From Saccoglossus kowalevskii (taxonomy: Eukaryota > Hemichordata > Enteropneusta > Harrimaniidae): a stretch of DNA of 35,156 nucleotides. A program made the translations under genes and the position numbers. Each line of letters opens with the position of its first letter. The stretch's first letter is position 1. Below the pieces are notes generated by a model. The model was not told where the DNA came from, ran no database searches, and saw only the letters and a program-made list of their open reading frames with translations. Location of the stretch: positions 164,972-200,127 of the forward strand of contig NW_003105110.1 in the NCBI RefSeq assembly GCF_000003605.2, written 5' to 3'. Below are positions 3,040 through 35,156 of the stretch, in pieces.

Positions 3040-3177
3040 TTATGAAGATGTTACAGAGGCTAGTTTTTCAGCGAGTTGTTTGTCTCGTTCCATTGCTGCT
3101 TCCTCTGCCTCTTGTTTTGCTCTATCGACATTTTGTATTGTTGTTCCTAAGATGCCTTCAATATCCTCAATGGCAGC
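3040..3177 (-). CDS. IQCH: IQCH exon 21 (last coding exon, residues 1090-1134, stop)
   Basis: 138 nt including the TAA stop (3042-3040), acceptor CTTCTTCAG, phase 0. Encodes [16 protein letters not shown], then a charged Glu/Ala/Lys helix ([20 protein letters not shown]), possibly a short coiled coil, ending SVTSS. The open frame from exon 20 joins without conflict. Confidence 0.94.
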   Translation of the reverse strand, partial: AAIEDIEGILGTTIQNVDRAKQEAEEAAMERDKQLAEKLASVTSS

Positions 3178-6100
3178 CTGAAGAAGAAAAGTAAACTTTA
3201 GATTAACTTTATAAGCTTTGGGTGTAATGTATGAACAGATGCAACATGCACAGGAAATTGAATTGGAAAAATGGTGTCAACAGGAAATTATCCATTTTCA
3301 ATAAATTGCACTCCTGCTCAAAAAATAAAAAAAATATTGACTTTAAAATGGTTTGGGGTCACCAGCCAATTTTTTGAGAATGCTTTTACCCTTGGGAGCT
3401 ATGATGGAGATATTATGTTGAATCTATCGAAATTATCCGCTGGTGATGTTTTTATTTATTTTATTTATTCTGGGTTTTATAAAGTTACGAAAATACTGTT
3501 TTGCAGCAATATTGTGTTCTATGGAATTGTTCTAAAAATAGCAATACTGTACTGTAACGCACTAAGGAATACTGTTACCAAGGAACTCGCTCCATGATAT
3601 TTATGACCAATTTTCATAAAAATAAGAGTATAGGGTTCATCATTCATCAAGCTTTATTGGGGGTTCCATGCGTTTGACTGTCTAAATTAGAATTTTTGGA
3701 AAATATATGATAAACATTGAAATTTCAATAGTTTTTTGGGTTGTTGCTTTGATAACACATATGAATTATTTCACAATATGCATGGATTCATAAAGGTTCA
3801 CATTTTGTTCGGAATTACTGGGGGCAACCTGGCCACAGTAATTCAAAACAAGGAAGAATCCCGATGAATTCTTTCTTTTTTCTGTGATGCATGCAAATTT
3901 AAACCCCCAAATATTGCACATAATAGTCCCAAGACCCCAATAAAGAATATGTGTTGCACAGAAGTCCACTTACACAGTGCTAACATACTATGTGCACTTA
4001 ACGTTGAATAGAACACCAGTCAATTTTATTTCAAGTTTCCTACAGTTACTTGTTCATGTCCATTGTGTGTGATACACTTTATAACAATCTGAATAAAATG
4101 TTCCCAGCTACACAATTTCTAGATTTTCTCTGTCTCTCGTGAAATCAATTTTGATTATCTCAATAAAGCAAATAAAGTTAAGGGAATATTCATCTCTGAT
4201 TTGGTTTTCATGCAGATATCTTCTTACCTTAAAGTTGGTTTGTCCTTGCATGTTTGGAGCTGAAATTTCTTGGTGAATGACTGACAGATTTCTTGCAAAC
4301 GTTGCGAGAGATCCTTGTAATTCCTCCCCTATAGTCAGCATACCAATACCTTCCCGTTTAAAACTGTCAATCAGTGTAAATACAGTGCCTTGTTTCTCCT
4401 GAAAGGAAAGAGAAGACTTTAAGTTTAGCGTCAAATATACCAATGGAAATGCATTTTTTATATTTGGTTAATGCAACAAAACATTGCAATACCAAGTATA
4501 TCTCCTCTTGCAACTTCTACTACTGGACTGATCCATAGAACAACTGATTTGATCTCTGTCACAATTTCTGAATGTAAATTGAGCCCAAGATACGCTTGAT
4601 AACTGTAAAAGGCAAAATATTCCTTAGCTTTTGAAATCATTAGCCTGTGAAGGGATTAAACTACAATGTATATGTTAACTTTTCATACTCGCTGGGTTAA
4701 TAATTTACACCATTTAGTTATCAGTGAAATAAGCGTAAATAAAACTCAGCTAATAATTAAGTCATTTACAGAATACCACAAAATACTTCTTTTATAATGT
4801 AAAGCAGGTATAGAACAAATAGTGTTTTTGATTTGAAAAGCGATCTTCGCCACCAAAATACAATTGAATTATTGGACGTGTTAAAGGGCAGAAGTCGTCG
4901 CATCACATACGTGCATGTAAACAAAGCATCTCATGTAAACAAAGATGACTTTGACTGTTGAACAAGTGAACGAGTACAGATTTTACCAAGCTTTGATTAG
5001 GTGATTGGAAGGTATCGAAGGAGTCAATGGCAGTAATTAGTGCAAGTGGCGCCCGGGTCAAACCTCGTACATTGGATTGTGGGTAAATCAATGTTTATCA
5101 ACACAAATGTTGTACATGTGCAGCGCAACAACTAATAAGTATAATTTGCAAGTGTAATGCATCAGCGCTTTGAGCCGGAGGTGGATCAACCTATTAAAAG
5201 GGAATGATAAATTCATTTTATTCAGTCACTTGTTTGGCAGGAACCATACAGAAGAACAATGACATTAATGCGATAGTAGAGGACTCATCACGTCTTACCT
5301 TAATATCAAAGCCAATGCCATGTGCTCTACACATCTGAAAGAACACGCTGTAGTGTACGACTGCTAAGTTGGTATGCAGCAGCCTGGTACTCATCACGGC
5401 AAAACGATTGATGTTTGGTGGCACCTGGAAGATTAATATAGTTTATAATGAATTTTCTTTGTTTCATATTACCGGTATCTTCAAAAAGAATTAAGTGATG
5501 TTAGTGCACTTACGTCAGGTTCTTCAGGCTCCCATCGACTCCTTCTCTTGGTTTTCTTCTCTTTCTTTGGTGGTGGCACTTCAAACACAGAATTCTTTGT
5601 ATCCAGCTTACCACCCGTGACATACAACATCAATCCAGTCATCGCCATGGTGTCATTGTATGACAAATTTAGATCTATAGCCCAGAGCTTTTGATCCATC
5701 TAGTTAATAAATTAGATAATGTCATGTGGCACGGTTAAATTTACAGAAATGCATGTGTGGTATGTATGTAAAGGTGAGTATGATTTCAAATATGGAGGCC
5801 AGTTAAAACCTTGCCAATAAAGATATAAAATACAACTCGGCTACTTTCCTCTCAGATGACAATAATTGTTATTTGAAAGGGAAACTGATTCAGCAGCGCA
5901 ACTGCTCAAAGCCATCATAATTTGAAAAAACAAAAACGCCCCTTACCGTTTTTGCATCAATAAACGTTAAAAAGTCAACCGTGAAGTGACCAATCACACC
6001 ACGTTGGTGGCAGGCTTTAGCAATCTTCATACAGGCATCATTCAACACAGTAGGTTCCACTGACGACTGGGGAATGGATATACCCCACGCAGTGAAGGGT

Positions 6101-9100
6101 GTTTCTGCATGTATCTGATCCCCACAGGAAATAACATTAATTTTACCAGTTGGTTCTATTAACACATCTACAGATAACGCAGTGACACTCTCAGATGGCG
6201 GGCATGCTTCTATGATGCCTCCTAGTGATGAAAAAGACAGAAAATATGAGGTGAACACTGACTTATATTTCTTCAAATACATGTACAAGAAAAATGTAGA
6301 CCTACTAATTGAGATATAAAATGATGCTTTGCTTTAATCCTCTGAATGCCATAATTATTCTCATTTTGTCTATTTTTATGTATTTCTATAATTTCTTATA
6401 GGCTATATGTCTTAATTCAATTTTTTCAAAAATTATGAAAACGTTATGTGAATTTAAAATTTGTGTATGGTGACAAAAGTTGTGTTTGGTGCTCAAAGGG
6501 TTAATGATATGCAAATTACCTAATTAATATGCACATACGGTGTATAGAACTATTTTGTGAATGGTGAGAAAAGTAGACTTTGGTGCTCAAAGGGTTAATG
6601 ATATGCAAATTACCTAATTAATATGCACATACGGTGTATAGAACTATTTTGTGAATGGTGACAAAAGTAGACTTTGGTGCTCAAAGGGTTAATGATATGC
6701 AAATTACCTAATTAATATGCACATACCCTATATAAAACTATTTTGTGAATAGTGACAAAAGTTGACTTTGGTGCTCAAAGTGTTAATGATATGCAAAATA
6801 CCTAATATGCACATATGGTATATAGAACTATTTTGTGAATGGTGACAAAAGTTGACTGGAGCTCAAAGGGTTAATTATATGCAAATTACCTAATTAATAT
6901 GCACATACAGTATATATAACTATTTTGTGAATATGACAAAACTTGACTTTGGTGCTCAAAGGGTTAATGATATGTAAATTACCTAATTAATATGCACATA
7001 TGGTATATAGAACTATTTTGTGAATAGTGACAAAAGTTGACTTTGGTGCTCAAAGGGTTAATGATATGCAAATTACCTAATTGTGTCAGTGGTTTGGAAT
7101 TTTTATAATATTCAATTAGTAAAATGAGTACACAATACCTTTACTTAGAAAAGCTTCTAAGAATTTCTGCCATGTTGGAAAGACTGTGGTATTAACTGGT
7201 CTTGCATTTTTCTCGAGTACATCTGGAATTTCAGCATGAATCCTGATAAAAGCGGCTTCCTGAAAGTGAGGTCAATTTGAGGTCAAGATTAGAGTATTTA
7301 GCAGTTTTAATAAGCTAGAATGAAAGTTTAAAATGTGCCACATTACCAGCATCTATGTTGTATGTCAAAAATCACCATTCATTCAGCCATTGCCTCACTA
7401 CTCTCCATGTACATGTATTAAATGCTAATTCCACTCATCAATGCAGTTTGACAACCACACAATGTGTTCTCAGTAACAAGTCAAGTACTGTTTGCATGGG
7501 ATCTCCCTCAAACACAACTTGGAGTAACAAATATTTTATTTTTTCTCATATAGTCCCATGTGTTAACTCCGTAATCATTTTTACACAAGCACATGCTTCT
7601 AATAGAACAGATACGACGTACTGGATAACTAATATAAATTAAACTATAAAATAGTTTACCTGTGCCCATTTCTTGCTCCATTTCTCGCCATACCTCTGTT
7701 CTTCTTTCTTTGCCCATGTATAAGCTCTCAGGTGTGTCGTGACATCACAGTACGCAATCCCCCTACCATCAAATTCATCATCTAATTTAAATAACCACCG
7801 TTTAACGTCCAAGTTCTCAGTTACTAGTTGTGCTAAACATTCGTGTAACTATTCAAAAAAAAAAGAAAAACAGTAAGCTCCCACAAGAGAAGTTTTAACG
7901 AAAAGTTTTGATTATAAAAAAAAGAAAGTAAATTATTATTTGAACACTTGGTGGCGCTATATTTGACCTACCTGAGGTAAACTATACACATCATATTCAC
8001 TGGGAGGCACTTCAATTTTAGCACTGTTGAAAACTCTTTTACACCCAGACTTTGTACTATACAACTGAGCTACGTCCGGCTCTGAACCTAATACTGGTAT
8101 GTCTGTAGAGAACAATAAATCAATAAAAGGAAAATCAACAAAGGACAAAACATACAGAATAACCAATTCTTTTCTCAGATTTTCTGTAATTGTGGTTACG
8201 GAATACGGGTGCCATATTCAATATTTGTAAAATACACTGACTGAAGTAAATGTCAGTTTTCACACCTTGTTGATCAAAACATATAAAAACATGTGTTTGT
8301 ACCACAGCACAGCATGGTAGCGTATGCACTATAAACAATGACTCTTTGCACATCTTGACATTCTCTGTAATTTCACTTCATTTCAATGTTAACTTTGAAC
8401 CAATAACAGACATAATTTGATACTTCTTTCATACACTGATCAAATATTTCAAACTTTGATTAACTTTCATAGAAAGAAACAAATTAGGAACAAGACTATA
8501 TTTTGAAAAAAATGCCAGTGAAAAAGGTAATAACAAGTGAATAACAATATTTGGGTGATTCCACTACAGAGAGGGGTGGATGCATAAGATAACTTACCTA
8601 ATTCATGTGCTACAGCTAGATCGTCTTTATGCATGACACCAGGGACTAAGTAAGCTTCTCGTCCTTTGATTAAGTTTTTAATTCTATTGAGAGCCTTGGG
8701 ACTATATTTTAGATGTGTTGCTAGGCACATGGAGTGACTCTGTGGAACAATGAATGGATTGATATCAAAGTCATAAAAGGTGATTTGACACTTTAGAAAC
8801 ACACGACAAAGAAGATGAAACAACATTTGTAATGCCGTCAATATACAGTTGTCTACTTTTGCAGTGGTAAATATAGACTAGCCCAGCCATGTAATGTTAT
8901 AATTTTTTTTTCCTTAGATCGTGGTTTGATGTGATATTACCATGATTGGTTTACTCTGTGGCGTAATCACTTCTATTAATTAATCATGATATGCAGTGAC
9001 ATTATGGGACCCAGGAGTGGAACACTTCCAAAAAAAGAAAATAGGTGTGCGCTTGCGCAAAAGATTCTAAACGTGAGGCTACGTGTAAGTTATAGTTACG

Positions 9101-12100
9101 TAGAACAGATCTGACCAAAAGCTGCCTTTCTTATTGGTTGGCAGCTTACAAGTATTTATCACCACAAAAACTGGGTAACAACTATAGAGGACGTGGCAGA
9201 ATAGACCAGTCGTGCTAATTTCGTTTGAACATGAAAAATTCTATAAACTCACTAAAGGAATTATATAAAAGAATAGAAGTACCCTGACTGGGCCAGTCTA
9301 TGGTAAATACTGTATTATTGTCACTGGTATTTAATTTCACTATTTTGAAGTTTTTAAGGTCACTGGGTTTCAAGTTCATGAACTTGGCAGGGAAACAAAG
9401 AGTTCTGTTGTTATTTACGTGTTTACGTAGATTTAATTCAGCAAATTTTACTCAAATTAAACCCAAGATGGCGTCCACCCAAGACAAGACCCAAGACATT
9501 CCATTAAACATAAATCTTATGGCAGTAAGTGTTTTTAAACTTCTAGCTTGATTTAGAAATGAAGAGAGCTTCCTGCATTGATACTAAATATTAATTAAAA
9601 TTACTGAATAACTTACTGGAAATCTATTGGAAGCCTCTGGTACAATAATTTTATATCTGTCTGTGACATCAGACTGGTCTTCCACATTGCCCGATGAGAC
9701 AGCTGACCTTAAACCCAATAATTTAGAATAGTACTGTAGAGTTTCATCGTTCACTTCAACTGGACATATATAAATTACTTCAACGTTTGGATCTGAAGAA
9801 CAAAGAGATTACAGTATTGTAATAATAACAAGAATGCTATCAGAGACGGCTGATGTACCCTAGCTGTGGATCAGCCATCCTTATCAAATCATGTAAGAAA
9901 TGCATGTGTACATGTATGTTTATAATATAATGTGTTATATATGTGTAAAGGTATATAACAAAATCTGTTCAGACGGGCCCAAGGTACGGGCAAGAAAATT
10001 CATTTTTAAAAAACAATAATGACCACCAGTCAGCCATTTTGAATCAAATTAAAAATCATCAATGTTTGCATGGTCTACCGGTAATCCTGTTGCAATGTTT
10101 GTATGGTCTACCGGTAATCCTGTTGCAATGTTTGCACGGTCTACCGGTAATCCTGTTGCAATGTTTGTACGGTCTACCGGTAATCCTGTTGCAATGTTTG
10201 TACGATCTAACGGTAATCCTGTTGCAATGTTTGCACGGTCTACCGGTAATCCTGTTGCAATGTTTGCACGGTCTACCGGTAATCCTGTTGCAATGTTTGC
10301 ACGGTCTACCGGTAATCCTGTTGCAATGTTTGCATGGTCTACCAGTAATCCTATTGCAATGTTTGCACAGTCTACCGGTAATCATGTTGCAATGTTTGCA
10401 CGGTCTACCGGTAATCCTGTTGCAATGTTTGCACGGTCTACTGGTAATCCTGTTGCAATGTTTGTACGGTCTATCGGTAATCCTGTTGCAATGTTTGCAC
10501 GGTCTACCGGTAATCCTGTTGCAATGTTTGCACGGTCTACCGGTAATCCTGTTGCAATGTTTGTATGGTCTACCGGTAATCCTGTTGCAATGTTTGCACG
10601 GTCTACCGGTAATCCTGTTGCAATGTTTGCACGGTCTACCGGTAATCCTGTTGCAATGTTTGCACGGTCTACCGGTAATCCTGTTGCAATGTTTGCACGG
10701 TCTACCGGTAATCCTGTTGCAATGTTTGTACGGTCTACTGGTAATCCTGTTGCAATGTTTGTACAAATTCCATACATTGATAGTGTCCCAAATAACAGAA
10801 TGGCAAAAATGGTACATTTTGATAAGCAATAATAATTACCTGATATGTCACATATCCTCGCCATTTGTAAATTTTGTCTAATATTCATATCTTTAACAGT
10901 GTCTCGTATTTTTTGTGAGTAACCAAGGGATGGAAGATGAATAAGTACTCTCCTAGATTGCTGGATGCGACTCCAATTAGTCTTGAATTTCTACAATGAA
11001 TCAGAATATGGTAAAGTCAATGACCTACAACAATAGATGACAATGGAGTAGTTGATGTGCCAGACCCGTAACAAATACAGTGTAACAGTAGGTCCTGTGT
11101 TGGACCTACCTGTGGCTGAACACCAAAAAGGAGTTGATACTTATACCATGGAAACTAGAGGATGTTTCAGTGGAGTGGCCAAAGCCACATTCAATATTGT
11201 AGATGCGAGGTTGGAAGAATCTGTGTCTGGTTGATGGTTGCTAGTAGTGGACCACGCCTAGTTGTCTATATATAACCAGGCTTGTCAAATAAAATCAGTG
11301 CTTTAACAAAGATTACACCAAAATCTTAACCAGTTGTTTTAAGCTCCTGGAACTAAGCTTTACGAGGTTGTTATGGAAACCTAACAGTAAAATAAAAAAA
11401 CAATTCCTACCTTGGCTCTTTCTCTAAATTCATCTAAATACATTTGCCTAGTGGTTCGTAATTGTTTTCTAATTTTAGACAGTTTGACGTTCATAATCCA
11501 CGATATTGCTATTACACCTGCCGCCCACTTCTTCCGCCTATACTCCAGGTAAGCCATTCGGTCCTTGTATCGCCTCCATGTTGCTTGTATCTTAGTTGCT
11601 GCCACATGTTCACCATCGGGACCCAAGAACCGCCTTCCTGGTCTTTTGATTATTGCTAAAACATCATCTATGTTTATTATTACACTCAGCAAGTCTTTTA
11701 TAGTAGGCTGCTTTTCAAGTTCAAATTCTAAAGACAAATCTGCAAGTCTGATAAGGAAAAACAAGCCAATAGTACTTTACATATTTGGCAATAAACAAAA
11801 TGACACACATGAGTACGTATAGGGTTTAACGTTCAGTTCAAAGCAATTTCAATTTTGAAAAACGTGTCATATTGCACCAGTTGTCGACTAAGTTGTTAAA
11901 GTGGGTCACCTGCACATGCGTCAGATGACCATAGCATGCGTCTACCCTTTGAGTTTTGTGACTCAATTCCTGCATGTGCACAGATGACCACCCTCCTGCT
12001 TTAGCAGTTCACATTAAGTAAATCTTGTCATGCAATGCTGTTCAAATTCTGCTTGCTAAACAAAACTAACCTAGGAAATATGCAATGAACGATGAACAAT

Positions 12101-15100
12101 CAGACACAGTAGTAACATGTGTAAAATACTTGTCCTATAAATTCAAAATGGAGCAATCTAATGGCTTTACAGAAAATAATGAACTCGCAGGTCTATTGTA
12201 ATTATTATCACGCAAATATTAATAGGAAATATTTCACATCAAATTTTAATTCTGAAATATGATAATTTTTTTGATCATTGAACAGAAAATATCAAATGCA
12301 ATTCAGTATTAAACTTAATATGCTATTCCTAAGATCTTGAGAACTCAATCACGATACAAATCTGCTGAAATTCCAATAAACATTGGTCAAAGCATACCGG
12401 TACATGTATGTCAGGAAAAATGATGATAAATGGGCCAAAACCATAATCCAATTTCAGACAGGGACAATACTACAAAAGATAAACTTACTTGTCGCCATTA
12501 ATGAAAGCCAATGGTATTGCATAATTTTGTAGCATCCTTTCCATGTATTGTAACATTGTGACGATACTACCCCAAGATAGACAATAATGTTGCTTGAAAG
12601 CCATAAAGTCTTGTGACTGTTCACGGATTTTACCATGTTGGATTGGAAACCGATGACTGAGGTGTTTGAATTCACTAGCTGGAGTTGTAGGTGGGGGCTG
12701 TAAAAATGAACATAATTCAAAAATGTTAACACAACAAATTTTTTGTTGTTATAATAACTGCAAACAAAAAAGTGCTTTGACCAATATGCTAGGCAGGTGA
12801 GTTTCACGGGCATCAATAAAAGTCACTGATTGATGGAGCTTGCTTCTTGTGCTATGTAAAAACATGCTATGTGTACCAGTGAATGTGTGCATCTAACTGC
12901 TCTACATGCATGGTGATGATTTCACTCAACTGAGCAGAGCGGAGCGGAGCGGAGCGGAGCGGAACAGAGCGGAACAGAATAGCTGTTAATGTTGTTAGTG
13001 ATAATGACTATTCTCTCTATTGGTTAATAGGATGTTGAGTCATTACTAACAGGATTAATAATGAGAAGATATGATTGTGAATGCCAAGGTTTTTTTTTTA
13101 TACAGTGGTGACATGCAAGATATTAACTGTCAATCAAAGTGTCAATGTGAGCCTAGCATAACATCAAAGACTGCTACCGAGTACTGTAATATGACTAATT
13201 TTCACTGGGTTCAAATTTCGCTGATTTACCATTTCAGGCATATAAAGTGGGTTTTATCATTTAGATAATGTGTTCTATGCTAAATTTTACATATTTACTG
13301 GGTTTTAATTTAGCACATTCTGCAGTCAGCGAAATGAGCAAAATTAAAACCCAGTGAATAATTAATCCTTTTACAGTACTATTCCACTGCGTTCAATCTT
13401 TTGAGAGACAAAGTCAACTTTTGTTAACATTCACAAAATTAAATCCACATCATTTTTTTCATATTATTTTCCATATTTTTATCAAGAGATGTAGCCAACA
13501 GGAAATTATGTCTATTTTGTCCAAATTTATCAACAAAATACATATAAATCTGAAAAATGTTGCACCAAAATATTGGCAGGAAAATTAGGCCAAAAAAAAA
13601 AATTGTTTTGTTGCCCTCAGCGACCAACCGAAAAATATGAAATATTGGGTCGCGTTTTTTTTTTTTAATAGGCCCAAATATTAAAAACTCACCATTTTAA
13701 GCAGTAAAAAAATTGTTTCCTCTAAAAATTAAGGATCCCGGACCATTGTTTGATCCCAAGAGTCCCCGTAAATGGCGACTTTGAACCTTGGGTTGATCTG
13801 TATTTCTCTGACATGTTCCGAATACTATGAAGTCCATATACCTTGGCTATTTACGATACTCTTAATTTTCACGAATTTAAAAAACTTGAAGGCAACATAA
13901 GTTTTTTATTTTTTTGGCCTTTTGGTGGTCAAAGAGCAATGCAGTGAATAAAAAACACAGTTTTTTTGGGTGCATGCATGAAGGTTTTCGCTATATATTC
14001 AGGCATTCCATAATGATGGCTCAATTTTCAAATACTGTAAAATACTTAATCCTTAGCTGGAATAAATTTTTGCTGAAAGGGCATTTTTGCTGTTTTGTAT
14101 GAATGACATTTATTTTCACTGAATTTTGATGAGTGGAATGTAAAACATAGAAAAAAAAATTTAAAGTATTTTAACGGGAATATATTTCCGCTGATTCATC
14201 TCTTCAGCGAAAATAAATTCTAAGTGAAACTATTAGTTTAAATTTGTTGGTGGAACAATTAAATCAGATATTAAAAATTAACAAAATGTAGAATAACAGC
14301 GTAGCAATTCATCCATCTTAATATTAAGATAATCTATTAATTTTAAAGCTGAGTTATAATTGTTGGCTGACTCCAGTTATTCCTTTGTGGACCAAAAGTT
14401 GTCGACCAGTATGGAAAATATAATGTCCATTCATCACTGACATCTGTCAGTCAACGCTGTTGAGTGATTTTCATTGTTCATGTAATGTTATTTCAAGACA
14501 GGAATAGTCAGAAGTAACAAACAGCAGGTGGATTCCCAAGTTGTGTGCATGTGTAACACTGGGATTTCTATAGTTTCCCATATAGAATGTGTAATCTAGT
14601 GTAGTATTGGTATACCTTTCAATGTCAAAGTCAACCTTTGCTGCCTTTCACAAAATTAACCCAATTTTTTTCTTTATATTTGTTCAAAAACGTTTGATCA
14701 ATGCCTGTAGTCAATGGGAACTATGTTCATTGGGTTCAAATTTAACCAAAAAAAATATTAAAAAAAACCATAAAAAAATGCAAACTGATGAATCAGAATT
14801 TTCAATGTGAAAAATTAGGGTTTGCATTCATTAGACTTACCAATTCAATTACATGTAAAGAATGCTAAGTGTATTTTAACAAAAGGAAATGACAATGGTG
14901 TATTGTTATTACTGTAGTATTAAAAGGTTATTAATAAAGTCAACAGACAATGACACGGCATACAATGTATGAACCCAATTCAAAGTCATAGACAATGATA
15001 AGCCTGAATTAATAACGTATTAAATGTACATAAATAACGTATTAATTCAGTGAACACTATAAAAACCACAGAAACAGATGGTAGCTGAAAAGATATATTA

Positions 15101-18100
15101 GAGACAGGCTGAACAAAACATAAACACGGCAACAGTGTATTCTTTTCAAGACCATTAAGTATTCATGTTTGCATGATCAAACATTTTCTCAATTAGTTTC
15201 AGCTTTCAGTCTGCTAATGTAGGCTGGTCAAAATGCTTGTATTACATTTCAGTTTGTTTGACAGATATCAAAATGCTAGCTCTTTCTTCCAATATATGTC
15301 ACCTGATCAGTTATTAATTTGCATATAGTATTGGGTGGCTACATGGCTAATGCACTTTTAACATTTTGGGAAGCAATTTTCTATTTATTTGAAACTTAGA
15401 AGATAAAACTTTAAGTACCTGAACTTATTTTCTAATTATTGAACCTCAGTTGTGTCAACTTGTATGCATTATTATTTTACCCAATTTTCAATCCAAAATG
15501 GCCATCAGCATAACATTATGGGAAAATCATAAAATTAGTATTTTCAAAGTAAACAAGTTTTATTTGATGATCAAGAATTTGTAATGCTTTTAAAATTTCC
15601 ACATTGTTGATAAGTTAACTACGTCCATCCTTAAATGCGAATTTTGAACAGCGGACAAAAAGAACAAACAAGAGAACAAAAAGAAGCTGCTTGTTTATTT
15701 TAGAGTTGAGCTGATGCCATATTATTGCTCAGAATGCAGTGCCAAAAGCATGCATGGAACTTAAGTGGAAACATGATTCAGAACTTAGGCAACCTGGAAT
15801 AAACTTGATGACTAGAAATCACTTATTATTTGTTTTTCTTAAAGGGTGGTAGTTGTTGCGCCATGCATGCACAAGACATATGGGGCTTCATATACCGGTA
15901 AACAAAGATGGCGACTTCGAATGCGCAGCGCGGCGACTATCGCCCTTTAAAAACTATATAAGTTTCTTGGTCATTTTTATTTATTGGTTTAGATAAATAT
16001 CTATCATAACATATATACATGTATATATTTAATAAAATGAATATTGCTTCCCAGAAATTGAAATAATTTCCACTATATGAAACATTATATAAACTCACCA
16101 GCGGTTGTAATGCTCCATCAAGTGGTTTAATAGGTACCATGCTTTTACTGGATTTGGCAGATGATACCATTCTGGAATGCGAGGGACCATGGCCCCATGT
16201 GCTATCAACTTCTCGCTCAGATGCTTTACCGGCAGATTTTGATCTGGATGACATAGACATGGAATCTGTAGACTTATTATAAAGTAAGTCCATCTTAACA
16301 AAATTGAAATTACCATCTGTGTTAAAAAAAAAAAAAAATATTTGTTTTAAATCATTAAATTTGCTGCTGTTACAGAGCTTTTTTTCTATTCTATTCTTGT
16401 CTAGTGTAAGTAGTATGTAAGATTAACAAGAAGACTGAAGAGTCACAGATCAGTGACACGTACATGTATTCTATTTGCTCTAATAGAAGTATGGTATTTG
16501 TTGTATTTAGAATCATTAAAACATTACTGATATTTAAAGTGGGGGAGTCGTCACCTACGCATGTGTCAGATGGCCATATCGTGTCATTGTTTACAAACAA
16601 GCATCTACCCATGAGTCTTTGCATTTTTAGCGTGTGTTGTTATCAGCGATTGGGACTCAATTCCTGTGTGTGGGCAGGTGACGATCCTCCCGCTTTAATT
16701 TCACCATGAAAATGCTTCTGTAATTTATATAAGCGCATGCGATACTGTTATAATCTTTATGGACTGGTTACGAATTTCGCAGCCCAAGGTATGCTGTACG
16801 ACCAAGGGCAGCAAAAGCCATGTCCAGATTTCATCATATTCCTTATAGGTGTAATTACAATTTTACCACGGTGTGACCTCAAACACATGTCGTAATTTAG
16901 AATGACGTGATGTGAGGGTGCACTTGCCATAGCGATATGAGGCCGGGAAATATTGGAATATAGGTTCTGTTCCACATTATGGGTCACTACATCAAGTGTA
17001 AAATATAACGATTGTTTATATTACAAGACATTCGGACACCTACAACATCAACATGATGAGTAGATCGCTTTACAAATTTCACACCAACTGCAGTGAAGGT
17101 GTACTCATTATTGGATATTCATTTAACAAACAATCACAGTATAAGCGTGGGAAACAATATACTGACCGCCAACACCAGCTACAGGTACTTTAGGTTCTTT
17201 TTTTTCAATAGGATCTCGTAACTCCACCATCTTATGCCTGACGGGTGAAGGATCTAACGTCAGTTCAGCTGCTGGAGGAATTAGTCCCCTTTCTAATAAA
17301 CTTAAAATTCCTTTCTTGGCATCTTTTTCTGTTATTGCTGGTGGAATAATCTGATAAGAGAGAAAATAGAAGAGTGCATAATGTATATGATGCTAGTATT
17401 GGGATATTTCTATGCTTAGGAACCATGCCACATACACTGCCATAAACAATATGACGTATTCATGTATATTAATATTATTTTTCATGAAGATATATCATAT
17501 AAATTATAATATCATGTCATTTTTGTTGTTTTGTATTATAGTCATTCCCTTTTTCTTCTTCTTTTGATTATGTTTTTGTACACTGTATCTATTATCATTT
17601 ATTCAAATAGACTTCTAGAGATTAATAAATATATTACCGATATATCTTATTACACACATACAAAAATGTATATGTATCAATATAGTGACGAAATACAAGA
17701 CAAATGACAACCAAACGTGGTTTCTATATGAAAACTACAGGGGGGTATGAAGTATTATAATACATATGATCCATTATGGCCAGCTCATTGATTTATTGTA
17801 AAACACCAAATACACGGCAAAGTAAATACTATATAAAATCTAAGTAAACATGTACTGCGTGCCTGACTCACAACCAATGCTTGTGTACGACACCAAATTG
17901 TCTAGCTTTTGTGTCATGACATAGCACAGCACAACATGTCTTCTCTTTAGCCACTTAGATAAAAGATGCCTAATAACCAAGCTTATTATGAGAAACCCAT
18001 TCACATCACACTGCGTAAAAATGATAAATACTCAATTTTTCAAAAAATCGGATGAAATGACAACATTTTCTGGTTAATTGGAGCAACTATCACAAATTAT

Positions 18101-21100
18101 TACCCAGTACCTTGATGCAGTCAAAATAGAAGAAAATATTGTAGATATTATATATCGATTACTTCACTTGAAAGAGGTGACTTACCGATGGATCAACACG
18201 ATTGGCTCTGGGTAGGACAGCTAGGTGTTCCACTGTGTTGCCCATAATTACTTTCTGTGGTGTTTTATGCTTTCGTTTATCTACTATAAGTGGTAATGAG
18301 ACGCCGTACGTATCACTAAGTACTTGTCTATTATACTGGTTTGTGGGATCATGGATGGCCCGCATATTCCATGCATATTTAGACTACAGACAAAGAAATA
18401 TTCAAAAGTACATGTATGGAATATACTAAAAATACACTGAGAAAGTGGGTTACCATAACCCTTTCACTAATTGGACCAGGGATGGAAACATTTTTTATAA
18501 AAATAAAATGATATTTTTTAGGTGGCTGAATCCCATTTAAGTTTTAGTCAGTGATATTACGATTTCAACAAGAAAATTTAAAACATTGGAACAAAAACAT
18601 AGACAGAATCAAAAGTGTAACTAGATTTAATACAGCATCCATAAAGTGTGATCAATCCATCAGTAGGTTGAATTGCTGAGAAAAACACAAAATTATCTTT
18701 TTTTTTTAATACAGAAATTAGGTGATCCAACTAATAGAAAGATTAAGGTAATTCAATTTTTAATTTTGAAAATCGTAAGATTCAGAAACAAGCTTTACAT
18801 GACTGGGAGGTTTTTAGCACATTTTAAAATTCCATCAAAATCAAAATTCAAATTCTAAAGATTTTTTTTTAAATTCTGGACAAAATGAATATAATTCCTA
18901 ATAGCTAGACGTCTTAATTAAATTGTTTGAAAGATATGGCAATATTACTATACACCAACTAAAACATTATTAACACATAGATATCCTGTCGAAGAAAAAT
19001 AGACCATTTTCCGTTCACTGCGAGAATCATGCGTTATGCGTGAAATCAAACGTAAAAACAGGACAAACAAAGGTCATAGTGTTGTAGTGGCGTCAAACAT
19101 CGCGTAGGATTCGACAAACGCGAAAGTATTTGGGGGGACAATATGATATTTCTATGCTTAATAATGTGCTGTTCACATTTGATGATAGGCAATTTCGATT
19201 AAGTAAGGGTATTTAGAAGCAATATTCCTCTGCCGAAGATCGTCCAGTTGATGTGAGCTACGAAATAAAGAAATTCAAGTTCAAAATCAAATCGTTCAAT
19301 TTTTGAGGCAGATGTTTAACGCGTGTCTTTCATGCAACTCGCGAGATCTCGCAATTGTACGAAAAATCACCTATTACGCAAAAGAAAACAATGTAGATTG
19401 TTAGGCACCTCAGACAGCTAGAAAAAACTTCACAGTTTACTATATACACTTGCAATGAGGATTGAAACAAATATAAATACTGTTTTATACCTGTTGCCCT
19501 GGAGATGGACCTTGCATATTTTGTAAAGGTTCCATTTTGGTGAGTCTGGGAACAGGTTTTTTATCAAAATCTCTGAAACAAAAAAGAAAAACACAATTAT
19601 TAAGATAATCTTAACAAGACTACAAAGAAGAAAAACTGTTAAAGTGAATATTAAATTTGTATTGATAGTAAAATTTAATTGGAAGCCCTTACAATTTTGA
19701 GTAACTTGGCAAAAAATAAAATATGAAAGTTATGATGTTCCACTACCAGTACTTATACTGATCAACCCTGACATATTGTACTATTTATCAACTAAGTTAT
19801 TATTTGTCTTCACTACAATAAATCAGTGCACTGCTGTTTGAAATCTGCTTTGAGAACACGCTTAACCACAACTAACCTAGCAAGTACGTAATGTTTGATA
19901 TTCAATGTTGCCCCAGTCAAAAGGTAACATGAATAATATAGTCGTTTTTTTAGATTTCAAAATGAAGGGATCTAATGGCTATACAGAAAACAATCTACGA
20001 GTTTGGCGTGCATCTTGGACTAACGCTTCACATCATTGATTTTGTAATAGAGTTCATCTTCAACTGACAAACAGAGAAACTTGAGTGTAAATTTGGTGAC
20101 TTGATGACATCAAAACTACATAACTCCTCAGTGATGTTTGGCTATTGACCAGATGATTACAATTAATCCTTTCACCACCGCCTTTTATCCCAAATTTGAC
20201 TGCACTATTTTCTTGTATGCTTCAATATTTCTGGAAACGAACCATAATTTTGGAGCCAACAGGTAGAGCTGAGTAAATTTTAAGTTTTTCTATTTTAGGA
20301 CTATTTTGTGAATTTGTGATGAAAAGAGAGAACTGATGATGAAAAGGTTAAATGAATTAGCTGATTGGACTCAGGTTTTAAAATTGAAATATTGATAATA
20401 TTAATTATTATGTGACAGAATTAATTTACCTTATTCGCAAACATCTGCCAAAATTTAACTCACCTCTCTGCTAAACCTAGTGTGTGTCTCCGCGAATAGC
20501 TTTTCTCTAATTTTTGTCCAGTTTGAAGATCATATAAAGCTTCCCTGAAAAATGAAATAACAATATTTACTGATGGGAGTCAATACAAATTAGAATATAA
20601 TAAAATTTATTGAAAAATCATACCACTGATGAGTGATATATTGCAATACTTTCAAAACATCTAAACTTGTCAAAAAAAAGTTGCAGGTCAAGTGTTCAAA
20701 TTGTGCTTTCCAGTTTGAATTTAGCTGCACAATTAATTGATTTTTCTAAAATTCTGACAAAAAGCTAAAAAAAAAATCAGTGATGTGCACACTTTTAACT
20801 GCATCATGCATGACCAGCATCGTGAATATTTTTTGCTTGACCCTACAGATATACACGTCATGTATCACCCATACATCACCCATCACTAATGCCCAGACAA
20901 GACAGATAACAATGCTAGCGACAGCTCCCCACACAAAAGAGTAATGGTATTCTACTTACTGGGTACCAAGATGTCCGGGATGTCTTTGTCCGGCGAGATC
21001 TAAAGCAGGTAAGGTCATAACTTGATTGTTAGCTGAATGTAGCACATTTTCAGTTTGGCCCTGACAATAAAACAAAACAAAATACGATTGAGGTAAATAA

Positions 21101-24100
21101 ACAAAAAAGAACAATGCATTTATATGCTTTCTAAATCTTCATAAATTAAGGCAGTAAATCAATGAAAGCAGACAATAAAGTGCATCATAGCATGGTATTA
21201 TTGGAAACCATAAATTAATTTGACTACTCTCAATAATAGCTGTGAATCCATTGGATGCAGTCCACTTGGTGATAAACCACACTATAAATATCGAACATAA
21301 GAAAACTACACACAAGGACATCACTGTTTTTTCTCAGTTCGTGTTTGGTACAATATACAACTATAATAGCAAATAGGTTAACAAAGTTAGTACATTATTA
21401 GTAAGAAGAATCTAAACTTTGAGACTACTGGTATTAACAGAAACATTCTATAAAAAAACAACAACAAGCATTTTCCAGTTAATAAAACTATAATGTTTTG
21501 TGAGTCAACTTACAACACTTTTCATAATATAAATATTGCTTCGATGCCCATGAAATTGAAGCACCAATGAATCTCCCTATATTATTTTCTTTTGTACATA
21601 TTGGTATATGTGAAAACAATTTTACTAAACTTTGCATTGAATTTCATGACCTGTTTTTAGACTTATAATAATGACCAATAGAAAATTGCTGTAAAATATT
21701 CAATTTTAGCTGGAATTAGTTTTTCACTGAGCCATCCCTTCATCCTTAAATGTAGTAGCCAAAATTTGGCAGAAAAAAATCATGTATTCAAATGGTTATT
21801 CTTCCTCTGAAAAATGTTGTGGCTGTAGTCCAGGACATGATGAATAATTATTTACAAACCTTTTTAACTGGGTAGGGCCTGAATAACTCACCTGAACACC
21901 TTCCTGTGTTCTCTGTATGGCATTTTCGAGCGCACGGATATCTAGAATTTCTCTAGCGCCCTCAGACAAACTTTTCTGAATAAGGTGCTCCTTCAGCTGT
22001 TGCAAATCTTCTTGAACCTTGAAAAACAACAACCTTTATTGTAACTTTAAAATACTGCAAAACATTCACAACTGCAATACTTCAGGGAAATATTAGCAAA
22101 AATGTTAATAAAAAAAAAGCATTATTTTTTTCCTCTGAAATTATATACAAAATACTGGTAGTACTTCTATGAGTTCTCCATTACCTAAAATGTTAGATAA
22201 CACAAGTCATAAGAGTTATTAGTTTAATAGTAGTAATTTACACACCTAAGCAATACAAAAGAAGTTGGTCGATGTTAAAAGGTTGTTGGGTGCATGGCAG
22301 CCACCCCCAGTGTATAAGAACAAATTTGTCAGAATTTTAAAAGTTCTATAATACATCTGTACACAGTGTACATGTACATGGTGGATGATAGTCCATTGTA
22401 GTTTTGTCATGAAAACTAATTATTATATACAACAGTGAAACAAGCCAGCAATTATTACGGTAACCAGTAATTTCATTTAGTTGGGAAACTAAATATACGC
22501 CTAATTAAAGCCTTACATGTCAATATTAATATACTGTTACTATGGTAACTACCGGGTATGCCATAATAAGAATGTGTGTATAATGGTGGGAGGTAGAGCC
22601 CATGGACTGCTATTTTCAGGGAACATAAATGTTGCCTAAAAATAATAGACAACAACAAAGTGTTGTGAACCGAAAAAACATGTACCGGTAAATCGGTATC
22701 GGTACCGGTAAAAGTTTGAGAGTACAGTTATACATGTAAGCCTCACTCTGTTATACTACCGGTAGTATGCTCTACATCTTGTATGTATTTTACTAAAATA
22801 TTTTTTTTGTTTATATCGTGTTGTGGACAACGTAAAAGTACTACATTGTATTTTAATTCTGCCTCAAACGAGATTGTTTTCCTTATTAAATTTTGTGCAT
22901 ACAGTCTGATCTTATAAACATTTGTACATATTCTGTGCTTGAACAACTTTGAGAGGAAAACACAGATTCTCGAGTTGAGTTATAAGTATTAATGGTCTTC
23001 GAGAAAAGATAAAATCAAGAAGAAGTTCCTAAAATTCTATATAGCGAACACCCACCACAAAACGAGATATGGAAATGATGAGCAAAATTTGTCCTAATCA
23101 TCAGAATTTTCTCCAGTAGTGGTGTTGAAATACATATACCATTATATTGATAAAAATAAAGTGTAAACAAAAAGTTATGGATACATCTGTAATTGAAAAG
23201 ATTCCCCCTGCTTTTCAAATGGCCACCCCTCAATCTGTTTGACAAATTTTTTACTCAACAAAATGTTGCCAACCACTTATCCAACCTCACTACAGACTAG
23301 CTGCTGATAAATTAAGGATGTTGAAACTGAGTACATGTACACACATGATGTTACTACCAGATAGTCGAGTATTCAAAGTAACAAGGTAAGGTATGGTACA
23401 AGTAAAGCCAGGAAAACAGAATAAAATAAAATAGAATCATGGTAAAGAAAATATATTTTTGGTTATAAATAAAATGTGTTTTGTTGAGCAAACAAACAGG
23501 TTATTGTTCAGCTATACTTTACTTCGTGGGCTGCACGGGAACCCAAAAATTGAGAAACAACTATTTTTATTTGTTCATTTTCTATGAATGTATTTCAGAG
23601 CTGTCAACACAAAGGCATAGTAGTTAACCATCAATATTTGCTGTGTTCTTAAAAGTGTTATTTAAGTGTTAGCATTTGAACATTTTCTTTTTCAATTACC
23701 GATAGTAAAGAAAATTAATATTCAGCTTGTACATGTACATGTATATCTAAAATGCTCCAGGACACAGTGCTTCTAAGCTATAAATATACTACAATAGTAG
23801 ATTGGTTAAGTGAAGCTACCGATAATGATATGAGTGGCCAACAATAAATCAAATGCACCTTATTTCATGAACGTCAAAACTGTTTACATAACATCAGCGT
23901 CTAAACTTTAGATAGATAAGGCAGATTTCACTGAAAGACAAACAGTTGCTCGGAGTGTAAACAACTACAGTTGACAGAATGCACCACCAACATTTGGACA
24001 ATATCACCTTTCTCGATAATTGATTTTCTCTTAGTAAATTAATTCTACAATAATGGGAATAACGTTACTTTTGGGATCTACAAACCAGTTGTTGTAAAAG

Positions 24101-27100
24101 TTGGTGGTTGTGCCACGCATACATGAGATATTGGTCTCAGCCTCTCAGGAGCAAAGATGGCAACTTTGACTGTTGTGTGGACCCAGGGTGTGTGGATCAA
24201 TGAGTACAAACTGAGACAATACAAAGCTCTAACTAGGTAATTTCTTTGGGAAGTAAAAGGTATCGAAGAGTCACCGACGATAATTAGTTCACATAACGCC
24301 CTGGTCAAAACTCGTACATGTGATTTCCATTAGAAGAGCGCATTCGATTGTGGGAAACTCAATATTTATCAACACATGCACGACACGACGACCACTGCCC
24401 TTCCTAACCTTTATAATGTTTGAACCTAATAAGCAAATACAATCAGCAACTCTGAAACCTGCTGAAAGCATTGATATTTAAATGTTTACCAACTGATCTA
24501 TGATTTATAAATATTTCTAAAAGAAAATATGTCAGAATGTCAAATTTTAATAATAGCGATATAAATAAATTATTGATTACGTGATAATAATAAAGCGCAG
24601 AATCAGAGTGGTTATGTTTTCTAATTTCCTTTGTAGTGTTATTTTAACTCAATTTAGTTTAGAAGTCCTTGGTTCCGAAGTGTATTTAGATGGCAATATA
24701 TTGCTTAAGATATACCGGTACCACAAATAGAGTAATTCCACATGACAATTACAAATGTAAGTCAATCCTGAAAAACTAAATCGTAGTTAATAAATTAATT
24801 CAATTGATTTTGAGTTGATTACTTTAAAGTTTACAGGCAAGGAAATATAATGCTAGGAAATGTCATCAATTTTTAACTGAGAACATTTGTTGACAGTAAC
24901 CTTTTTAATAATTATATATATATCATTATCATTACAATAACATTCCTCAAGTACAAAATAAAAATGTAGATTTGAAAATGAAAAAAATATGGGTCACTGC
25001 ACTTATTTCCATGGACATCGTAATTAATTTATATTATAATTAGAGTATTGATCAAAACATGTGGTAGCAGTGGAGAGCACAGTACATGCACTATTTGATG
25101 TGGGGATTACTGTCAAGCATCAAATGATTTGCTTTGTCGCATTATTGACTCAAATATATTTAAAATTAGAGAATATTAAATATTTTCTGATTTCTCACAA
25201 AGTACTGAGGTGAATTTGAATCCGAAATGTTAAACTTGTGCATAATTTTGAATATGCACATAAATATAATATCTACATTTGGGATTAAAATCGCCAAAGA
25301 CTCTACTTTTAGTATTTGTTCTTAGGGTAAAACAAGAAAAATATTGCAAGTGGCAATAAAATCCCTGCATTCAGAGTTGCACTCTGGGTGATGTTATGTG
25401 TTGACAGTAAAAACAGTTTCTCATTTGATAATTGGTAATATCTGAGACAAAGTTCTACTAAGAAAAATTGGTAACCTTTTTTGGCTATTTCAGAATATAT
25501 ACTTACAAATTTAATACAAATATAATAAATAGCAAAATTGGGGATCATTCTTGGTTGATAAATATATGCCATGGCACATTAGCTATATTAGTTATATTGA
25601 TTTATTTTCATGTTTACTTTAAAGCAGAGGGGTCGTCACCTGCGCACATGCGGGAATTGAGTCCCAAGCGACGATAACAACACACGCTACAAACGCAAAG
25701 GCTCTGGGGGAAACATGCGTAGGTGACAACTCCCCCGCTTTAATGATGTTTATTCATTAAAACTTTAATAACACCTGTCCCTCGCATAGCAACTAGTAAA
25801 TAAGATTATCAAGCAAGCATGCAGCCAATATGCTAGTAAACATTATTCATTTAGACATGATTCCAGTAAGAACCAAGCAATTCAACAATAACAAGGTAAC
25901 TATGATATGTCATATGCAGTGTAAACATTAAACCATGGGTCAAAAAAAATCAATTCGGAGTTTCTAAAAAGTTGAATTAGTATTTTATTGAAAGCCAGAT
26001 TACACATTAACTGTAGCATAGGCACAAATGTGCAGATTGGCATGCATTTCATACCAGTAGTTAGTGACTTATAAAAGCTCAAGTACAATGTCAATGTCAA
26101 AATGCTGTTCAGGCGAACAAAAGACTGGTCATGAATGTGAATTGCTTCAATTTTATCAAAGAGACTTTTTCACAAATTTTAAAAAAGAAAACAAATTAAT
26201 AAAAGTTTTTTTCATTCAGCTTAAAAAAGATATTTTACCTACATGATATAGATATATACTGGGTATACTTATAAGCTTAGCTGTATTGAAATATTTTGGA
26301 ATGTTAATATGGAGGTAATTTAGAGATAAATTTATAATCAAACTATTACTATTTGATGAAATTACATCAAAATAAACAGATTTGTTCTCAGTTTGACCAT
26401 TATGCACAGACTGCCTCACTCAAATCATATCAAGTATCAATCAATTTGACTAGAAGCCATTGATGAAACTGTGTTTACTAAATTTGAGTGCATAGAAACT
26501 GCTTGACCCTTGGTATAGTGAGGTCACAAGCATGCTCAATTGTAAGTAAAGATATGAAAAACACAACCTAGGTAATGAAGCCAACCCATTGGTGGGCAGT
26601 GAAAAAAGACAACTCTTTTGTTACAAACATGTACATGTACATGTATATATGAGTCTTGGTGGAACAAATTAGGAATAAGTTCATTTAAATCACAAAAACA
26701 TTTGGAACACAAATCGAAGCATTGTAAGGACAATAGTCTCAAAAGACTAAACACCCTCAGGAGTAATTGTTTATCCACTTTGAATAAATAAAAAGTTTTG
26801 CTAGGTTAGAAGAAAGGGTATCTTTTTGAAGGCGCTGTATGTGCTTGTTCATTGAAATGTAAACACGCAATGCTCATTATAAACAGAATTCGCACCAATG
26901 ATGATGTCATGATCGATGATGAGTGATTACAGCAACTAACTGATAGTTATACCCCCGTATGTCCAAATTTCCATTATGCCATTTTTCTTCTGAAATACCT
27001 TTATTTCTTACTTTTGCAGCTTTATCGTTCCTCGTCGTGTTGTATTTTGTATGTCTTAGTTATAGTTTTTGTTATGCGTAAGACTATACAATGATACAGG

Positions 27101-27921: not shown

Positions 27922-27932
27922 CAAAATGGCCG
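27922..27932 (+). promoter_or_regulatory. YY1-like motif over the AAGAB start codon
   Basis: CAAAATGGCCG contains AAAATGGC, close to the YY1 consensus AANATGGCGGC, with its ATG being the AAGAB initiator. This arrangement is common in TATA-less promoters and also gives a good start context (A at -3, G at +4). Confidence 0.4.
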
Positions 27933-27989
27933 CTTCTGCCGTCATTGCCAGTTGTTGCTCCGTTGTCGATCCTCGAAACCTAATTAAAG
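27926..27989 (+). CDS. AAGAB: AAGAB exon 1 (residues 1-22)
   Basis: 64 nt from ATGGCC to AAAG|GTATAG, phase 1. Encodes MAASAVIASCCSVVDPRNLI then K, equivalent to the first strand of the pseudo-GTPase fold. The start has good context (ACAAAATGG). Confidence 0.9.
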
Positions 27990-30900
27990 GTATAGTTGCC
28001 AGTTTTTGTTTGTTGGTTCATTATAAGAAATGTATTACCTACAATTTATATTAACTATGAATCTCGAATAATGGGTTAAAAATGGGCCACTGAACGTGAA
28101 GTGAACTGAAAACGTGGATCAGTACAGTGGACGCTTTGACGCGCACAATGTACAGGAAGTTGACAATCAGATGTTTAATATAGCTCCCGAAGTTTGTACT
28201 AGTATTTGAATTATCAGTTGAAAATTGACAGAAAAATCAGATATATACTGAGGTTGGCCTTATAGTGGGCGCAATTTTCCTATCAATTTTCCTTGGAACA
28301 TCGCAGCATTATTCCTTACTTTAATAGCCATGTTTTGAACGTAGCACTATATTTGATGCAGGTATTTTTTATGCTTGTGTAGAACACCATTTTATTTTTT
28401 ACTAATATTTCACTCAATCCCTTTGCTTAAAATCTGATTGAAAAAAATTTTCTGCAACATGATTTAGAGGCTCAGAGCATTTAGCTAGTCAACAGTTTGA
28501 ATATGGATGACAACGTCTCATGATATTCAGCCATATTTACAATCATATTGAAAGATAAACTGGGATTTGAAAAAAAAAAAAAAATATAAAAACATTACTT
28601 TCCTTTTTTGACAAAATTATTCGCCCAATTTTGGTCTATGTTAGTGACATCTGGCAGGCTCAACTCAACTACTTGTCTATTGTCTACTCTACTGTCTTTA
28701 ATCTTTTAGGTGTCTCTAGAAACACGCGTAAAATAGAAATCTATGGTGAATTAGGCAAATATCTTTTGGATGTCTCACAGTCCCTCTATCATATATGATA
28801 AAACAAATGATTAAATATTACCGTGTCTAAATGAAGCAGGTCGCCTAAATAGATGGATAAATAAAAATAGTATAAAGAAGTACAATCACATCTAACACAA
28901 TTCAAATTAATCTTACTAAAATTATTACCACCCATAAAACAAATCGCAAATACGCGAGTAAAACATTGAATAAAAATTCTGAAAAATCATTCATAAAACA
29001 TTGGGAAAATGTGTAATAAAAAAAAAGACCAATAAATGCCTCAAATTACTAAGAATATTAAAAAAACAAAAAGATTTTAATTGGGAGATTATTTATTGCA
29101 TGAACAACTATGTATATTTTAAATAAGTAACCACTGTCTAATGATATAGACTGGACATTTCCCAGAAAATGAAATTGAAGACGATGTCCATTTCTTGAAA
29201 TCATGCTCATTCAACAATTAACAAAGATGTTTTTTGTTTGAAGAAACAACCAAATATACTTATCCATTTCACCAACATGCCAGATGATAAAACATTCAAA
29301 ATTTTGATGAACACAAACTGTTTAGTCATTCCAGTAGCCATATGGCTTCAGTACCAGACAGCAATCGTGACCAATATACACAAGTATATCTAGTATTACT
29401 CTATAATAACTTCCTTTTCATTTCCCTCAGCTTTGCAATATATGTAAACTTCTCTTATTTTCCCTTTTTTTTGTGTGACCTTACTGCTGTTCTTTCCCAA
29501 GTCAAGATTTTGTCAATAAATATTTTTACCGATAGTATCTCAATATAACAGGTGGGTTATGTGGCAAAAACCAAAAATTGGAAAAACAAAACAAAATGTA
29601 TATTTTTTTATAATTTTTACCACCCAAGCACCCCTGGTGACAAATTATGGTTGTTTCCAGGGGTGTAGTCTATTAGGCTTGAAAGCGTTAAAATCAAAAT
29701 GATCTAAAGAATATTTCAACGGAACTTAATTGGGAGTTAGCGGTTTTCATGATCTGTTTATTTTGGTGCTCATTGTAAATCTTCTCATTTGTTTATTTTT
29801 ATTTACCCAGACATTCTTGGTTTAAGCAGTTTACCAAGTTACCAAACACGAATTGAAAACATAGAAGCTTATCCATGGACCATCAGTAATAAATATTACA
29901 CAGCAGATGTTGAATTATGTTATCCACCTCGGAAGACACTCGGCAACGAAGAATTTGCAGACTCTGTTCAAGCAGTTGTCATAGCGTTTGAAAACAAGGT
30001 ATATATCATATCAAATCTGAATAAAAGTATGAACATGTAACTATGGTGACATGTGATGAAAATCTCATTGATCACAAAAAAATCATAAGACAAACACAAA
30101 TTTCTATTATAGTAAATTTCTATTATTTCCATGTTTCTAAGTATTAATGCACATGAGTGCATGTGTCAGGAATCATTTCTCATAAAGGAATAGAACTTTG
30201 TATAAGGATTATATAAACTGGGTTACAGGCACACATCAAAAATCATAATATTTTACACCAGGTCCCTAGGGAGTAACAATGACTTTCACTTGGATCCTAG
30301 GGAGTCACAGTGACTTTCACCAGTGTCCTATGGACTCACAGTGACACAGTTAAACATTGAAAAAAAGATATCAGATAGCAGTTCTCCCTGTACCTTCTTT
30401 TCAGCAAGGTAGTTTTGACGAGGTAAAAACATGGCTGCCATTTGTAGAAGCATGGAATCCTGAAGTTCGAATTCTGGCATGTCATCAGTTCCAAGACCAA
30501 GGTAAGTCATTGCAATCTTCATATAAAGGCAATGTCCATGATGCTCAATGTTTTTGCCTAGGTCCCCTTTCAAGTTTCCAATGTTCCAATCCTCTATAGC
30601 TATGACTATTCAGACAAATCAAAAGCCATAATGTATTATCATAGGTTATCATAAGAATGCTGTAAAGTATGCATGAAGGTATGATCATATCAACAGATGG
30701 GTAGTTGAGGTCATTGTGTTCCTGGTACTGTCTTAGTTATGAGGTTATTACGAGGACAGTACATCGTCGCACCGACCTCTGCGCATTGGACGATACTCCC
30801 TTGTACTGTCTTTGTGCATACTTTGAGGTATCCTCGTAATAACCTCATAGTATTACACACAGCAATATAATTATTATTATACATCTTTTATTTTCAAAGA

Positions 30901-34969: not shown

Positions 34970-35156
34970 GTATTTATCATGTGGTCTTATTTAGACTAAT
35001 TTATTCCATTGTGAATGTCAAAGACATTTAGATGTGAATCAGTGGTACCCGGTAGGCAAATTAACACCTGTTATAATAATGATAATAATGACCGTAGCAT
35101 TTCTACCCATATTATACACTGTTCTGGCTGTTCTGGTAGTTCAATGCAGTTGTTAA

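Follow-up and report, generated by a model that had tools for sequence, protein, structure and literature searches.

The C-terminal half of IQCH from Saccoglossus kowalevskii resembles a bacterial ATP-grasp ligase with a kept predicted ATP pocket and a changed catalytic loop

We analyzed a 35,156-nucleotide stretch of the genome of the hemichordate Saccoglossus kowalevskii (contig NW_003105110.1, positions 164,972 to 200,127; hereafter the window), whose minus strand encodes IQCH, a sperm protein of animals, and compared the C-terminal half of this protein with bacterial ATP-grasp ligases. Homology over three domains indicates that this half descends from a bacterial amino-acid ligase. Its predicted ATP pocket is kept, and residues on the catalytic side, invariant in the bacterial relatives, are replaced. 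Hence, this half of IQCH probably acts as a switch that binds ATP, and not as a working ligase. We somewhat favour the reading that a whole bacterial-type ligase has turned into an ATP-grasp pseudo-ligase, a nucleotide-binding clamp or scaffold that would respond to calmodulin.

Homology of IQCH to bacterial ligases

Twenty exons joined in frame at AG/GT sites give 1113 stop-free codons, and an additional first exon (27643-27705) adds 21 residues. Residue numbers refer to the resulting protein of 1134 residues, and coordinates to the window.

3040..27705, minus strand: coding region of IQCH with 1134 codons and the stop codon in 21 exons (splice-site model)
11549..11605, minus strand: IQ calmodulin-binding motif, residues 469-487 (PF00612, 19.9 bits, cut-off 20.3, E 0.00057)
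8080..10957, minus strand: pre-ATP-grasp (N-terminal) part, about residues 545-697, 4 exons (alignment with bacterial relatives)
5598..8079, minus strand: ATP-grasp domain, residues 698-962, 5 exons (PF24923, E 5.8e-127)
4261..5406, minus strand: PGM1_C-like C-terminal part, residues 997-1078 (matched by the profile of bacterial relatives in its second stretch, with an independent E of 4.6e-5)

An earlier reading of the window, made from the letters alone (the sequence-only reading), had proposed a PGM1-like ATP-grasp ligase domain in the interval 5514-8739, which spans 6 of the 21 exons. Our 21-exon model recovers its residue numbering exactly, for LYSTKSG (703-709), Lys754, DGRG (760-763) and Glu841 as well as for Asp871-Gln872, Asp919, Asp937 and Asn939. 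The IQ motif, a match just under the cut-off, precedes the PF24923 domain, the arrangement expected of an IQCH orthologue, and the gap after it is short, with the ligase-like part starting near residue 518.

The ATP-grasp fold family proposed by the sequence-only reading is supported by Pfam and by alignment with a bacterial profile. The window protein is a full-length member of PF24923 (ATP-grasp_IQCH), without difference within the domain; it scores 423 bits over positions 1-265 of the 266-position model, which covers the ATP-grasp part only. The assignment itself has a precedent, since the family already bears the name 'IQCH-like, ATP-grasp' in the database. The pre-ATP-grasp part has no direct match in Pfam (PF18604 included), and the C-terminal part has none to PF18105, its only hit being a sub-threshold one to PF20287 (12.7 bits, cut-off 25). 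A profile of 30 bacterial relatives aligns to two stretches of the window protein (518-971 and 997-1078) with a score of 187.2 bits, and 500 shuffled C-terminal parts reach at most 3.4 bits with this profile, which reports no match to the N-terminal half of IQCH or to the reversed C-terminal part. Using hhalign, 499 columns were aligned between the window protein and the bacterial profile with a probability of 99.95, in the order pre-ATP-grasp, ATP-grasp and PGM1_C (504-1070 in the 1113-residue numbering).

The relatives were identified with tblastn, searching plasmid records with IQCH residues 545-1077. Three of the six records found are credible, from Gemmatirosa (3e-11), Robbsia (3e-10; annotated 'peptide ligase PGM1-related protein') and Nonomuraea (7e-10; 96% query coverage); the other three have E values of 4 to 8. 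Scanning bacterial and archaeal genomes with an alignment of the plasmid relatives confirmed at least 518 of 584 candidates, and the best 80 were kept. This sample is not neutral, because the relatives closest to IQCH were kept and the search pattern sat on the ExN loop, where it permitted bacterial or IQCH letters at most places. All ten relatives scanned contain PF24923 (47.7-98.1 bits) and PGM1_C (37-51.7 bits), and five have a PreAtp-grasp match, in every case under the cut-off. No phage record matched at E up to 0.1, and none of 92 candidate viral contigs was confirmed.

Among structures in the PDB, BesA (8yi6) is the sole direct sequence match of the window protein, and a weak one (E 0.81); the NCBIfam model of BesA (NF042917) gives E 5.3e-5 and 22.2 bits, far under its cut-off of 750. 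The profile of the 30 relatives retrieves BesA with E 4.8e-63, and we took its seven weak PDB matches (E 0.0043-0.89; POB3-type and mandelate-racemase-type chains) as chance. A model of one bacterial relative, L004, is confident (predicted local distance difference test, pLDDT, 92.3) and structurally matches BesA and ATP-grasp peptide ligases (VIA-align among the top 1000 of Foldseek). The PGM1-like kinship is thus upheld by Pfam, PGM1_C in the scanned relatives, the profile alignment and the structural match of one relative's model.

The predicted ATP pocket is kept

The residue comparison covered 83 bacterial proteins. IQCH is identical to all of them at, among others, Lys707, Lys754, Gly761, Gly763, Glu841, Gln872, Asp919, Phe920, Asn939 and Thr945. 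The roles of the pocket lysines, the glycine loop and the acidic and metal-binding residues are known from ATP-grasp enzymes in general. The kept elements are given below, with the score change in PF24923 upon substitution by alanine.

8050..8052, minus strand: codon of Lys707 (in TKSG), first ATP-pocket lysine, 83/83 bacteria, K707A -4.8 bits
7786..7788, minus strand: codon of Lys754, second ATP-pocket lysine, 83/83, K754A -4.2 bits
7759..7770, minus strand: DGRG glycine loop, residues 760-763, both glycines in 83/83
6208..6210, minus strand: codon of Glu841, 83/83, E841A -2.8 bits
5974..5976, minus strand: codon of Asp919, metal-site aspartate, 83/83, D919A -3.3 bits

The catalytic side is replaced

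10868..10876, minus strand: Gln572-Asn-Leu574, in place of bacterial Glu-Glu-Arg (83/83 each)
6115..6123, minus strand: Gly870-Asp871-Gln872, Gly in place of His (83/83)
5667..5675, minus strand: Asp937-Leu-Asn939, Asp in place of Glu (83/83)
5640..5663, minus strand: exchanged catalytic loop, residues 941-948, SYNDTMAM versus bacterial RKGGTTHP

Among other changes, within the loop Arg941 (83/83) is replaced by Ser, Lys942 (82/83) by Tyr, Gly943 (83/83) by Asn, Gly944 (82/83) by Asp, Thr946 (82/83) by Met, His947 (77/83) by Ala and Pro948 (81/83) by Met; outside it, Arg711 (83/83) is Lys in IQCH. In ATP-grasp enzymes, the Arg/Gly-Gly loop acts in making the acyl-phosphate and passing it on. 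IQCH thus lacks the signature of BesA/PGM1-type ligases, namely the Arg-Lys-Gly-Gly loop, the histidine of HDQ and Glu-Glu-Arg. BesA, an L-propargylglycine--L-glutamate ligase, retains the motif EINLRKxGxxH, the histidine of HDQ and the last two residues of Glu-Glu-Arg, at which IQCH differs, with QNL at the last; the partners it keeps are those of Arg941, Lys942, His870, Glu937, the second Gly and the His after that Gly.

As a control for divergence, we considered 48 columns invariant in 81 bacteria, of which the window protein keeps 25 and the bacterial relatives L001 and L002 keep 38 and 36. L002 is nearly as distant from L004 as IQCH is (28.5% and 25.3% identity), and despite this distance it retains Glu-Glu-Arg and the partners of His870, Glu937 and Arg941. 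The ligase activity suggested by the sequence-only reading is therefore not supported, and we set intact ligase function aside because the catalytic loop is changed. It is very improbable that IQCH works as an amino-acid or peptide ligase of the PGM1/BesA type: full-length homology, the kept Lys754, Glu841, Asp919 and Asn939 and the tolerance of BesA to change at some invariant places might point that way, and the replaced catalytic-side residues and a family profile that disfavours the bacterial loop argue against it.

Probing the family profile

PF24923 served as a stand-in for orthologues, and fragments of the window protein with substitutions were scored against it (bits).

Fragment 696-743, base 69.3: K707A 64.5, K711R 68.8
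Fragment 737-796, base 86.4: K754A 82.2, G761A 83.8, G763A 83.4
Fragment 830-893, base 92.6: E841A 89.8, D871A 89.0, Q872A 89.5, G870H 90.2, S853A 91.9
Fragment 906-961, base 78.3: D919A 75.0, D919E 76.0; D937A 74.8, D937E 75.8, D937N 75.7; S941R 78.3, S941T 78.3; Y942A 72.6, Y942K 72.3, Y942F 75.9; N943G 77.7, T945A 78.0, N943S + T945Q 83.5 (gain 5.2); D944G 74.8, D944E 77.3, D944N 77.5; bacterial RKGGTTHP block 59.8
Fragment 906-961, position 939: Asn 78.3, Asp 78.9, Ser 78.0, Glu 78.0, Lys 77.9, His 77.5, Arg 77.4, Thr 77.3, Ala 77.2, Gly 76.3

When, as a control, alanine was placed at 10 positions spread over fragment 906-961 (Tyr942 included), score changes ranged from -5.7 to +0.5 bits, so the values for single substitutions are suggestive only. 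Firmer results are the cost of the bacterial block, which PF24923 disfavours, and the nearly flat scores at position 939, because of which Asn939 cannot be regarded as held by the family profile. Of the three residues whose conservation the sequence-only reading had proposed as a test, Lys754 and Glu841 are preferred over alanine by this stand-in, and Asn939 is hardly preferred to any other residue. The kept and the replaced residues are those of S. kowalevskii, and from the profile we infer that other IQCH proteins share the changes.

Interpretation and alternatives

We propose that an animal protein took over a whole bacterial-type amino-acid or peptide ligase with its pre-ATP-grasp, ATP-grasp and PGM1_C-like parts. 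Nucleotide and metal would still be held between the two lobes. Formation of the acyl-phosphate and its joining to an amine would be lost, since a different conserved set has taken the place of the residues on the substrate side and of the loop that follows the metal ligands. The product would likely work as a clamp or scaffold that depends on nucleotide, and its opening and closing, or its partners, would respond to Ca2+/calmodulin through the IQ helix directly preceding it.

Several points weigh against this proposal. The structural evidence comes from the model of one bacterial relative, and claims about the family come from profile probing. The costs for the pocket residues are high within the control range and do not exceed it. 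For Ser941 the profile shows no preference over Arg, which carries no cost, and Asp944 can change to Asn or Glu for only 0.8 or 1.0 bits. That the profile does not favour Asn939, kept here, could also indicate that the metal site is weakened and that nucleotide is bound poorly. BesA departs from the bacterial consensus at the partners of Gly761, Gly943, Thr945 and Glu572, and therefore not every invariant residue is needed for ligation. Finally, a conserved replacement loop could equally fit a changed chemistry.

The last point leads to the alternative that fares best, although we consider it unlikely: an active, re-tooled and still ATP-using enzyme, in which Asp919, Asp937 and perhaps Asp944 would bind the metal and SY(N/S)D would form a new catalytic loop, for ligation or phosphotransfer with a substrate of another kind than in the bacterial ligases. 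The intact predicted pocket is consistent with it, as is a new loop that appears conserved and not random (Y942A -5.7, D944G -3.5, N943S + T945Q +5.2 bits); the loss of the partners of Arg941, the first Gly and His870 (83/83) and of the second Gly (82/83), together with an Asn939 that the profile does not hold, argues against it. More specifically, and with still greater reserve, IQCH might be a calmodulin-gated, ATP-using sperm enzyme with its own conserved S-Y-x-D active-site loop, derived from a bacterial BesA/PGM1-type ligase.

Doubtful to a further degree is a structural relic, in which the fold would bind no nucleotide and would act as a scaffold, or as a platform on which the reported partners (calmodulin, RNA-binding proteins or splicing factors) interact. 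Only 25 of the 48 core-invariant positions are kept, the IQCH branch in the tree is very long (about 10, though that of the bacterial L002 is also 8.4), and the parts consulted of PMC10112910 and PMC11259432 describe ties of IQCH to RNA-binding proteins, the former also predicting RNA- and DNA-binding stretches and no ATP site. Against this stand the six pocket residues, all kept, and the two lysines, which are among the costliest single substitutions tried (4.2 and 4.8 bits).

In the open-licence literature searched, we found no paper joining IQCH with ATP-grasp, or ATP-grasp with 'IQ motif' and sperm. The portions consulted of PMC10112910 give IQCH other domain labels and, instead of an ATP site, predict stretches that bind RNA and DNA (944-949 and 1019-1026 in mouse numbering); an RNA-binding-protein connection also appears in those of PMC11259432, which describe the IQ motif as the calmodulin-binding site of mammalian IQCH. 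Words starting with ATP or domain do not occur in the main text of PMC11259432, and ATP is not mentioned in the part consulted of PMC12832936. A ligase-derived ATP module with a kept pocket and an exchanged loop would give IQCH a testable function, nucleotide binding beside a calmodulin site, and points to specific residues to change.

Genomic context and further observations

Scanning the 572-Mb genome (4830 contigs) with PF24923 gave five places, all within the window, and a scan with the bacterial protein gave exon 16 alone (E 7.9e-7). Neither scan, both of which work exon by exon and score the best candidates only, showed a second or intact copy of the IQCH domain. A single-sequence genome scan confirmed none of 15 candidates, and PF24923 was present in one of 14 control genomes, that of Synechococcus elongatus.

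A Lys/Arg-rich segment, KKEKKTKRR (residues 973-981; 5541-5567, minus strand), lies between the ATP-grasp and PGM1_C-like parts of IQCH, in an insert missing from the five bacterial relatives compared. Tandem arrays are present at 10060-10761 in an IQCH intron (33-bp unit, 21.3 copies, 95% matches), at 6460-7082 in the intron upstream of exon 5947-6221 (94-bp unit, 6.7 copies) and at 406-522 (20-bp unit, 5.8 copies). A plus-strand gene at 27926-34970 is arranged head to head with IQCH, with 220 bases between the start codons, and resembles AAGAB (PF10199, 24.1 bits, under the cut-off of 32); human AAGAB and IQCH are presumably neighbours as well.

In bacteria, ten neighbouring proteins at six loci, nine of them with a family match, had no common theme, and we rejected gene neighbours as a guide to the substrate. 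An AstE/AspA-like deacylase gene (L004:2760-3821) sits immediately ahead of the Filomicrobium ligase gene and might point towards N-acyl amino acid chemistry for this family of bacterial proteins. A bacterial donor could not be taken from the tree, in which IQCH has a branch length of about 10 and a placement that is unusable.

Comparison with known systems

We also compared IQCH and its relatives with PGM1-type ATP-grasp peptide ligases (PDB 3wvq, which we take to be PGM1, 3wvr, 8ynd and 8ynq). Neither the window protein (E up to 10) nor the bacterial profile (E up to 1) gave a sequence match to these entries.

For its proposed mode of working, IQCH may be set beside synapsin, which is not known to have ligase activity. 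According to the parts consulted of two papers, this animal protein binds ATP through an ATP-grasp-like C domain, and the binding depends on Ca2+ (PMC9678998, PMC2922380); the domain has been compared to glutathione synthase (PMC2922380), with Ca2+ bound at the ATP site itself and not through calmodulin (PMC9678998). The likeness concerns the proposed working mode only. For IQCH, the simplest model would be an ATP clamp linked to Ca2+/calmodulin, of a kind similar to synapsin.

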